From a virus: DNA of 30,789 bases. Made by a program: the position numbers and the translations under genes. The stretch covers positions 1 through 30,789 of IMG/VR virus record IMGVR_UViG_3300026183_000022; one strand, 5' to 3'. A model generated the notes under the pieces. That model was given only the letters and a program-made list of their open reading frames with translations, ran no database searches and was not told the DNA's origin. This document shows positions 17,210 to 28,166 of this stretch, piece by piece (position 1 is the stretch's first letter; each line of letters opens with the position of its first letter).

Positions 17210-18529
17210 TTAAGTTGTTAGAAAGTTATAATTAGGAAATGTATTAGTAAAATTTTTATTACGTCTACGGTCAATTTCTTTGATAAAAGTTTTAGCATCT
17301 TGTGTTAATTTTATCTGTTCTTTTTGTTCTAAGCTGTTTTGTGCAAAATACTTGCACAGTCTGTCAATGTAATTGAATTCATTTACATCAGTGGTCTGTT
17401 GTGCTTTCACAAAGTCAAAAAGTTCTGTGAATTTGTCTTGCCAATACTGTGTTTTTGGCAAATTTAACACATTTAAAAACTTAGGACTATGCAGTATACT
17501 GACCCCGTATGTAACCCCCTTATATTCTTGTTTTAAGCGGTATACAGCCGTCATTAAGTCAATCATGGTATCTATGCTCAACATATTGGCTGTGACCATT
17601 ATATGCAAGGATATGCCACGTTTAAGCACCATTTTGCAGTGCGATAACCACTGATCATACTGCATTCCTTCACGTATGTATTCTGCCTGTTCTCCTGCAC
17701 AATCACAACTGGTATGTATCACAGCATTGTTGATGGATTTGGTCAATTTTAAATCAGCAATTTGATCCAGTGTTTTACTCACTGTTGCTGTGTCCACTGA
17801 CAGATTGGTATTGATTTCCAAATTCATTGCCGGTTGTGGTTCTGTGTCTAATTCATCCAACAGTTTAAAAGTGTTTTTGTTTAGCAATGGTTCACCTCCT
17901 GTGATTCTCAAAGTTCGCAATTGACTTTTGATTTCAGGCCACCACTTCCACCATGCTTCCACATAAGGATTGTGTTCTCTATTGAGATAAGGAGTTCTAT
18001 TGGATTGTTCTATCCATTCCAAATTGTTGTATCTGTCACTTGTGGGATATGCACCTTGATGTTTGATTTCACTCCACCATTCACTGCTGAACACCGGTGA
18101 GCAATACACACATTTCATGTTGCACACATTACCAAAACTCACTTCTACCTGTGCTGGTGTCACATTGGCATTCCAATCAGCATTGACCACTTGATCAAAA
18201 TAAGGCATGGCCCAAGTACTGTTACTGCTTTTTTTGATTCTGTCACTGTAGTGATCACCTTTGGTGTCTTCTACCTTCCAACAGTAATCACATTCGTCAG
18301 GTCGTTTGCCTTCCAACATTAATTTTCTTTGAAACTTTTTGTAAGTTGTGTTATGCAAAGCACTGGGATTTTTTTCCAGTTCTTCCAGTGGTACTTTGTG
18401 TGTTTGTGGATGATGACAACTGTGTGTATGTCCATTTTGCAAATGCACAGTGACCTGTTGCCATTTTGCTAGACACAAACTTGGAGACACAGAGTCTAAT
18501 TTTTTTTTGGTTTTTTCCAGTTTGTTCAT
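17210..18529 (-). CDS. Radical-SAM protein (twitch-domain type)
   Basis: A 439-aa radical-SAM enzyme. CNMKCVYC (C136, C140, C143) is the 4Fe-4S CxxxCxxC motif, preceded by QVEVSFGNV; LRITGGEPLLN (about 208-217) is the SAM-binding GGE motif. The N-terminal region has further cysteines (LCLAKW, SCHHP, DECDYCW), the pattern of the twitch-domain radical-SAM proteins that I recall from marine T4-like phages and SAR11-type bacteria. The substrate is unknown; relatives modify peptides or small molecules. The stretch appears visibly less AT-rich than its neighbours, suggesting a separate origin. No Shine-Dalgarno is obvious before the ATG. Confidence 0.88.
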   Translation of the reverse strand: MNKLEKTKKKLDSVSPSLCLAKWQQVTVHLQNGHTHSCHHPQTHKVPLEELEKNPSALHNTTYKKFQRKLMLEGKRPDECDYCWKVEDTKGDHYSDRIKKSSNSTWAMPYFDQVVNADWNANVTPAQVEVSFGNVCNMKCVYCSPVFSSEWWSEIKHQGAYPTSDRYNNLEWIEQSNRTPYLNREHNPYVEAWWKWWPEIKSQLRTLRITGGEPLLNKNTFKLLDELDTEPQPAMNLEINTNLSVDTATVSKTLDQIADLKLTKSINNAVIHTSCDCAGEQAEYIREGMQYDQWLSHCKMVLKRGISLHIMVTANMLSIDTMIDLMTAVYRLKQEYKGVTYGVSILHSPKFLNVLNLPKTQYWQDKFTELFDFVKAQQTTDVNEFNYIDRLCKYFAQNSLEQKEQIKLTQDAKTFIKEIDRRRNKNFTNTFPNYNFLTT

Positions 18530-27524: not shown

Positions 27525-27896
27525 ATGAGCGTGAAAGACGATATAAAGCACATAAGACCATTATGTAATTCTTGTAAAACTAGACCTGCGGCTTTTAATT
27601 ACAAAAGAAAAGGCAAAGTTTATTATCGTAAAAAATGTGATCAATGTATCAAAACTGATGCAGGTGAAAGAACAAAATACAATTATTCATGGGTCAAAAG
27701 CGGATATAGAAAGAAAAGTATCTGTGAAAAATGTGGCTTTAAATCAAAACATCCTTCACAAATGGACGTTTATCACATAGACGGCAACTTAAAAAATTCT
27801 AGTTGGGATAACTTAAAAAGTATATGTGCTAATTGTAGTAGAATCAAAAGTCTTGACGAAGTAGGGTGGAAACAAGGTGATTTATTACCAGATTAG
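27525..27896 (+). CDS. HNH-type zinc-binding protein (putative endonuclease)
   Basis: A 123-aa protein with three zinc-type CxxC pairs before the core (C14/C17, C38/C41, C67/C70) and the core VYHIDGNLKNSSWDNLKSIC followed by A-N-C (H84, the conserved N in DNL, C101/C104), i.e. an HNH/recombination-endonuclease VII-like fold. I recall near-identical architecture in T4-like cyanophages near gp17-gp18 (ending WKQGDLLPD-like). It is the only complete plus-strand gene in the window and overlaps the convergent lipoprotein gene by 4 nt. It may be a homing-type nuclease or a fixed phage HNH protein. Confidence 0.85.
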   Translation: MSVKDDIKHIRPLCNSCKTRPAAFNYKRKGKVYYRKKCDQCIKTDAGERTKYNYSWVKSGYRKKSICEKCGFKSKHPSQMDVYHIDGNLKNSSWDNLKSICANCSRIKSLDEVGWKQGDLLPD

Positions 27897-28072: not shown

Positions 28073-28166
28073 TGGTAGTCCTGACAGGACTTGAACCTGT
28101 ATCGCTCTCTAATCTGGAGACTGTGCCGAGTATAAGCCGGGTGTTTTACCATTAAACTACAGGACT
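28073..28166 (-). tRNA. tRNA or tRNA-like, apparent anticodon UAU, with long variable arm
   Basis: Acceptor stem AGTCCTG/CAGGACT (7 bp), D arm GTTT-loop-AAAC containing GG, T arm ACAGG-TTCAAGT-CCTGT, and encoded discriminator A plus CCA. The anticodon arm CCCGG-CTTATAC-TCGGC has a 7-nt loop with T33; the anticodon is TAT (reads AUA, Ile), with one G-U and a C-C mismatch in the stem. The 24-nt variable region, with an internal TCTC/GAGA hairpin, makes it 94 nt, as in class II tRNAs, which is not normal for tRNA-Ile. Could be an Ile tRNA with an insertion. Confidence 0.75.

Follow-up and report, generated by a model that had tools for sequence, protein, structure and literature searches.

How can a tRNA with the anticodon UAU be charged with isoleucine, and what is a variable region of class II length for in such a tRNA? 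The question is raised by a gene in a viral DNA of 30,789 nucleotides (IMG/VR record IMGVR_UViG_3300026183_000022; this whole stretch is called the window here), a T4-like phage fragment of 34% GC that encodes tail sheath, terminase, UvsX and head-tail adaptor. The isoleucyl-tRNA synthetase (IleRS) of most bacteria accepts U34 poorly and usually needs G34 or lysidine 34. In the window, AUA accounts for 211 of the 614 isoleucine codons and UUA for 310 of the 720 leucine codons, and given this AT-rich codon use both the tRNA-Ile and a companion tRNA-Leu suit the phage, in line with the first-pass annotation, which had regarded a direct AUA reader as useful in an AT-rich phage. AUA occupies the same alignment columns as the isoleucine codon AUU: in the head-tail adaptor family, AUA columns contain Ile at 0.46, Leu at 0.26 and Val at 0.14, AUU columns Ile at 0.40, Leu at 0.21 and Val at 0.18, and the columns of leucine codons are about 0.85 Leu.

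ARAGORN identifies the gene as a tRNA-Ile with the anticodon TAT and a length of 94 nt (Table 1), and the Rfam tRNA model RF00005 matches positions 28076-28166 with 59.5 bits at a gathering score of 29. Both agree with what had initially been read from the letters, namely that all arms and the CCA are present, that the D arm is class I-like, and that a gap of 24 nt with a hairpin separates the anticodon arm from the T arm. From the 5' end, the tRNA reads AGUCCUG UA GUUUAAUGGUAAAAC A CCCGG-CUUAUAC-UCGGC ACAGUCUCCAGAUUAGAGAGCGAU, followed by ACAGG-UUCAAGU-CCUGU CAGGACU A CCA, with a 7-bp acceptor stem, a 7-nt D loop (AAUGGUA), A73, and the encoded CCA. As 27-43 in the UAU arm is a C-C mismatch, the anticodon stem consists of four pairs. 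Folded by itself, the sequence has a minimum-energy structure other than a cloverleaf (z -0.39), and the support for the tRNA fold and its hairpin is therefore comparative and not energetic: on an alignment of 26 relatives, RNAalifold predicts all five hairpins unaided, including the variable-arm hairpin that had been proposed at first, the helix of which is 92.3% paired and has compensatory double changes in five of its six pairs. This hairpin is thus no product of chance folding.

Table 1. Positions of the tRNA-Ile(UAU) gene, its parts, and the companion tRNA-Leu in the window
Feature	Position	Strand	Basis or remark
tRNA-Ile(UAU), whole gene, CCA encoded	28073..28166	-	5' end at 28166; ARAGORN, Rfam RF00005
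Putative decoding anticodon arm, CCCGG-CUUAUAC-UCGGC	28125..28141	-	ARAGORN; covariation among relatives
Anticodon UAU of this arm	28134-28132	-	U33 and A37 present
Variable-arm hairpin, 7-nt loop CAGAUUA, bulged G on the 3' side	28103..28122	-	comparative
Centre of the variable-arm loop, GAU (positions 34-36)	28112..28114	-	kept in viral relatives
Variable arm from C29 (28119) to G41 (28107), A38 at 28110	28107..28119	-	kept in relatives
D arm, class I type, with U12-A23	28143..28157	-	sequence
T arm, 5 bp	28084..28100	-	Rfam RF00005, alignment of relatives
Companion tRNA-Leu(UAA), reader of an AT-rich codon	28340..28426	-	ARAGORN; Rfam 60.5 bits

At the same site, close phage relatives have the tRNA-Leu, either alone or together with the tRNA-Ile. 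Four phage sequences with a head-tail protein about 92% like that of the window (L007, L008, L009, L012) carry differing forms of tRNA-Ile(UAU) at this place beside the tRNA-Leu, and in L012 the core is that of the window tRNA and the acceptor and T stems are different, as if exchanged. An HNH endonuclease gene (27525-27896, plus strand) adjoins the window tRNA, HNH genes are also found near the tRNA in Lactobacillus phage LpeD (L081), phage 3-521 (L084) and Acinetobacter phage qsb1 (L660), and tRNA genes may be spread by homing at adjacent sites. Elsewhere in the window, amid structural genes, a radical SAM protein of 439 amino acids is encoded that is weakly QueE-like (17210-18529, minus strand).

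Viral relatives were collected with a pattern in which the D loop, the loop start YUUAUA and the T loop were fixed and the gap of the variable region was free. At least 97 distinct full tRNAs (mostly viral) are long-arm relatives, nearly all with the variable-arm hairpin, and the viral set analysed here comprises the 95 distinct long-arm UAU tRNAs among the matches listed; all viral and genome counts refer to distinct sequences among the matches listed, irrespective of relatedness. The variable regions of viral UAU tRNAs fall into two separate length groups of 4-6 nt and 19-33 nt. The short group consists of class I UAU tRNAs, which are common in phages (174 distinct ones among the matches listed), and the rarity of UAU to which the first-pass annotation had pointed thus holds for bacteria, which mostly avoid this anticodon for isoleucine, but not for phages. 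With 24 nt in the window and 19-33 nt in the viral set, the long group has a variable region of class II length (10 nt or more), but the 7-nt D loop is of class I type, and A73 and the position of AUA outside the Leu and Ser columns are not those of a class II tRNA either.

Among isolated phages the closest match is Lactobacillus phage LpeD, with 82.6% over the whole gene, which is unannotated there; in the region shown of this phage (L081 5001-5092; NC_048677), 14 further tRNAs predicted by ARAGORN are unannotated along with the tRNA-Ile(UAU). In phages ENFP1 and 3-521 the same gene is annotated as tRNA-Ile, and in general the public annotation gives these genes as plain tRNA-Ile(tat) or misses them. 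Long-arm tRNA-Ile(UAU) is also carried by isolated Vibrio, Acinetobacter and Aeromonas phages and by plasmids of Xanthomonas and Alteromonas, it is contained in large arrays of tRNA genes in Acidobacteriota and other groups, and in most phage copies the CCA is encoded. In bacteria the distribution is rare and patchy (47 distinct sequences among the matches listed, with 84,980 species genomes scanned). The long-arm tRNA occurs in 6 of 198 genomes of the Xanthomonas family and in 4 of 48 of the genus Microbulbifer, all these matches being of the long form with CAGAUAA under a pattern that allowed short loops as well, and there is no related sequence in E. coli genomes. Matches in Mycobacterium and Gordonia were partial matches to other tRNAs and were left out. 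A TilS gene scores above the cut-off in 24 of 26 carrier genomes, so that in those hosts the tRNA-Ile(UAU) is redundant or accessory. As to the neighbourhood, the large tRNA arrays of Acidobacteriota metagenome-assembled genomes (L262, L275, L279, L287, also L254 and L261) lie beside a gene for a Ro60-like TROVE/vWA protein and/or DUF6847 (PF20935), and on Xanthomonas plasmids and an island (L239, L662, L663, L667) the tRNA has a 3'-5' exoribonuclease gene as its partner.

The variable arm is more than a hairpin of conserved length. In a search that was blind to the loop sequence, positions 34-36 of a 7-nt loop read GAU in 85 of 94 viral hairpins, and most of the other nine are register choices that still contain CAGAU. 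With a GA-centred register, 94 of the 95 viral tRNAs have the hairpin, and while G34 and A35 (94/94) are then given by the choice of register, U36 is found in 92/94, A38 in 85/94, C29-G41 in 91/94, and all of these together in 83/94. Pair 30-40 takes four forms (UA 31, GC 24, AU 23, CG 14) and 28-42 also varies, which means that the stem changed many times while C29-G41, the sole invariant pair of the helix also in the 26-member alignment, stayed. Position 33 is mostly A (87/94) and position 37 mostly U, with A37 in only 28/94; given the A at 33, the variable arm is not a full copy of an anticodon loop. The GAU loop is tied to UAU and is found with no other anticodon: the loop CAGAUWA together with any VAU anticodon gave 0 matches, a search for it with position 36 other than U gave two sequences, a non-tRNA and a tRNA-Asn that lacks the hairpin, and in Leu, Ser and Tyr tRNAs from the same loci the variable-arm hairpins with a 7-nt loop had a GAU centre in 0 of 95 cases.

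A chance insertion is rejected, because at least 97 distinct tRNAs have kept the arm. Of the two roles that the first-pass annotation had offered for the long arm, a bearing on identity is thus upheld, the isoleucine determinants being kept, and a chance insertion or a shift away from isoleucine is not; nor does a better fold as tRNA-Leu, tRNA-Ser or tRNA-Tyr exist, and the relatives that bear the tRNA have lost neither the insert nor the anticodon. An intron in the main family is ruled out by the conserved 7-nt loop and stem, and we know of no bacterial splice system for so short an insert. Base pairing between the variable loop and the D loop, AUUA to UAAU, was discarded too, because no such pairing is possible for CAGAUAA loops and UAGC D loops. 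Variable arms of 14-24 nt, with short loops and no pseudo-anticodon, are frequent in phage tRNAs of class I isotypes (Asn, Trp, Thr, Gln, His, Met, Lys), as seen in many viral loci, among them L149, L152, L578, L579, L612, L566 and L618. Two further odd tRNAs are one whose body and variable arm are leucine-like but whose anticodon is UAU (L094, 1046-1128, minus strand), and one that was called Ala and resembles tRNA-Lys(UUU) with a 17-nt insert between the D and anticodon arms (L609, 4876-4965).

The conserved positions of the variable arm have to be compared with the bacterial isoleucine identity set, which consists of A73, C4-G69 and U12-A23 in the body and of C29-G41, G34 or lysidine 34, A35, U36, t6A37 and A38 in the anticodon arm (PMC9976931 Table 1; PMC9283866). 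The body determinants are all present in the window tRNA, and in the viral relatives A73 is found in 93/95, U12-A23 in 90/95 and C4-G69 in 67/95. The UAU arm of the window tRNA has C29-G41, A35 and U36, but U34 and C38 differ from the set, and in the viral UAU arms pair 29-41 is variable (GC 42, CG 39, UA 9, AU 4) and A38 occurs in only 17/95. What is kept in the viral UAU arms is C28-G42 (92/95) and G30-C40 (85/95), with 27-43 often C-C or G-U, and the arm has U33 and, after U36, A37. The anticodon-arm determinants other than A37 are thus kept in the variable arm, with C29-G41 and A38 not being kept in the UAU arm. Because this match was recognised only once the invariance was apparent, the comparison was repeated on the bacterial-genome set, for which the pattern required only RGAY and left C29-G41, U36 and A38 free: C29-G41 was found in 45/46, U36 in 46/46 and A38 in 46/46. 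The D-arm sequence differs between phages (GUUU/AAAC) and bacteria (GCUC/GAGC), whereas the variable-arm loop is unchanged.

A separate group of tRNAs has a different D arm, an extra linker and two perfect or near-perfect 5-bp arms in tandem, in the order UAU arm, CUGAU(U/A)A arm, class I variable loop. In L593 the sequence is GGGAGCG ... CGAGA-CUUAUAA-UCUCG, linker GCCAAACGGU, AGCGC-CUGAUUA-GCGCU, AGGU and T arm, and by eye the second arm looks like the anticodon arm of a tRNA-Ile(GAU) together with its class I variable loop. Both arms are well formed, with U33 in both, in L097, L437/L625, L593, L617 and L622; in 398 genomes of Bacilli, the pattern that had turned up L097 matched no true tRNA. 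In the copy on the Xanthomonas citri plasmid pCuR, the variable region is CGCGC-CAGAUAA-GCGCG followed by 5 nt, and the common variable region of 22 nt equals 17 + 5 nt, which is the length of an anticodon arm plus that of a class I variable loop. This agreement in length suggests that the long-arm tRNA arose by insertion of an anticodon arm.

One arm, then, probably gets the tRNA charged and the other reads the code. The UAU arm with its U33 and A37 would read AUA on the ribosome, and the variable arm would reproduce the identity part of the anticodon arm of a tRNA-Ile(GAU) (C29-G41, G34, A35, U36, A38) and be read by the IleRS of the host. In the IleRS-bound state, the GAU arm might be stacked under the D stem with the UAU arm swung out, and on the ribosome the UAU arm would stack under the D stem instead; such a swap appears possible because pair 27-43 is weak and the linker is short. 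A phage or plasmid would thereby gain an AUA reader that needs no TilS-modified CAU anticodon and hence no lysidine. The GAU arm itself is unlikely to decode, its loop in the main family bearing A33 and often U37. What fits the proposed role least is that A37, which as t6A is a strong determinant for bacterial IleRS, is absent in two thirds of the second arms. Nor is the arm the only route to charging, given how common class I UAU tRNAs that lack it are in phages. We assign a probability of about 0.6 to a portable, TilS-independent AUA reader, with decoding by the UAU arm and IleRS recognition by way of the GAU arm; that these tRNAs form a widespread class with divided arms, which are swapped between IleRS and the ribosome, has in our estimate an even chance.

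The conserved loop could also be explained structurally, by a tertiary contact within the tRNA or a contact with a modification enzyme or EF-Tu, in which case IleRS would charge the UAU arm as in class I tRNAs and the likeness to GAU would be coincidental. The unusual conservation of the D arm and of pairs 28-42 and 30-40 in the UAU arm would fit this explanation, as does the occurrence of class I UAU tRNAs that manage without the arm, but the conserved sites are just the known IleRS sites (C29-G41, 34-36, 38) in the fold of an anticodon arm, they are kept in two architecturally different groups, and the loop did not follow the D arm in its change between phages and bacteria, which makes a structural role unlikely. 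Decay would be another possibility, with a non-translational or degenerating tRNA of mobile elements similar to the allo-tRNA(UAU) group, and allo-tRNA(UAU) from soil metagenomes indeed has odd folds, which may include a five-stem junction, and was unusable for translation in E. coli (PMC7609411). The 7-bp acceptor and 5-bp T stems of the long-arm tRNAs are, however, 100% paired with many compensatory changes, most phage copies encode CCA, and U33, A37 and A73 are kept, so that decay is very hard to reconcile with the sequences.

The other alternatives concern what the two arms are for. The GAU arm might protect against, or be a decoy for, a host anticodon nuclease or toxin directed at isoleucine tRNA. 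Arrays of tRNA genes of this kind have been proposed to be anti-defence systems (PMC12803027), and the presence of the tRNA in phages, plasmids and arrays, in some cases beside genes for Ro60/TROVE-vWA or 3'-5' exoribonuclease, would be in agreement with such a counter-defence. A decoy has no obvious need of C29-G41 and A38, though, which makes this quite improbable. We also know of no nuclease that combines a matching specificity with a spread of this kind. Decoding by both arms in turn, UAU reading AUA and GAU reading AUC/AUU, could be imagined for the tandem-arm tRNAs listed above, but a decoding loop would not tolerate the A33 and U37 that prevail in the main family (U-turn, t6A37), and alternate decoding is thus very improbable. 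Finally, LeuRS, SerRS or TyrRS might charge the tRNA via the long arm, with AUA being recoded. Such arms are usual only in class II tRNAs, but A73 excludes the Ser discriminator, the AUA columns resemble those of AUU, and leucine codons lie in columns of a very different composition; a Leu, Ser or Tyr identity with codon reassignment was ruled out on the basis of A73 and the codon columns, and hardly any credence can be given to it.

If the division between a charging and a decoding arm is real, it would be a new solution to the IleRS need for G34 or lysidine 34 at a UAU anticodon and a natural case of an identity anticodon that is set apart from the decoding anticodon. It would provide phages, plasmids and tRNA arrays with a portable AUA reader that works without TilS, in a family that has been in plain sight as annotated tRNA-Ile(tat) or was missed. 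Recognition of a tRNA by a class Ia synthetase becomes open to direct tests, and synthetic tRNAs could be designed that are charged independently of their decoding anticodon. In the open-licence literature, no description of a GAU-bearing variable arm was found.

Several known systems resemble these tRNAs in part. A tRNA-Ile3(UAU) without TilS has been named in Mycoplasma mobile, Bifidobacterium and Neorickettsia, and Lactobacillus plantarum has a redundant copy (PMC4013482, PMC8450103). The UAU anticodon and, as far as its identity can be predicted, isoleucine at AUA are common to tRNA-Ile3(UAU) and the window tRNA. So far as is known, the tRNA-Ile3(UAU) described are class I tRNAs that need an adapted IleRS, the form of the Lactobacillus copies aside, whereas the window family adds a second arm with IleRS determinants. 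The tRNA-Ile2(CAU) also reads AUA, and in either case the unmodified base at position 34 (C34 or U34) is not an IleRS determinant, but in tRNA-Ile2 TilS alters position 34 chemically, whereas the proposal for the window family is that G34 in a second loop takes over, and with UAU in place of CAU the window tRNA is not of the TilS-substrate type. With class II tRNAs (Leu, Ser, bacterial Tyr) the family shares the long variable region with a hairpin, but it differs from them by the class I D loop, the 7-nt loop with a fixed GAU, the isoleucine determinants of the body, and several nucleotides between the hairpin and the T stem, as in class I variable loops. The allo-tRNAs(UAU) of Acidobacteria, Proteobacteria and Clostridia likewise combine UAU with an extra arm and are linked to mobile elements (Mukai 2017, as reviewed in PMC7609411). 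By description, allo-tRNAs are set apart by an acceptor branch of 8/4 or 9/3 and a serine identity, whereas the window family has 7/5 and A73; its pair 49-65 takes four pair types, and it does not have the 12-bp branch of allo-tRNAs.
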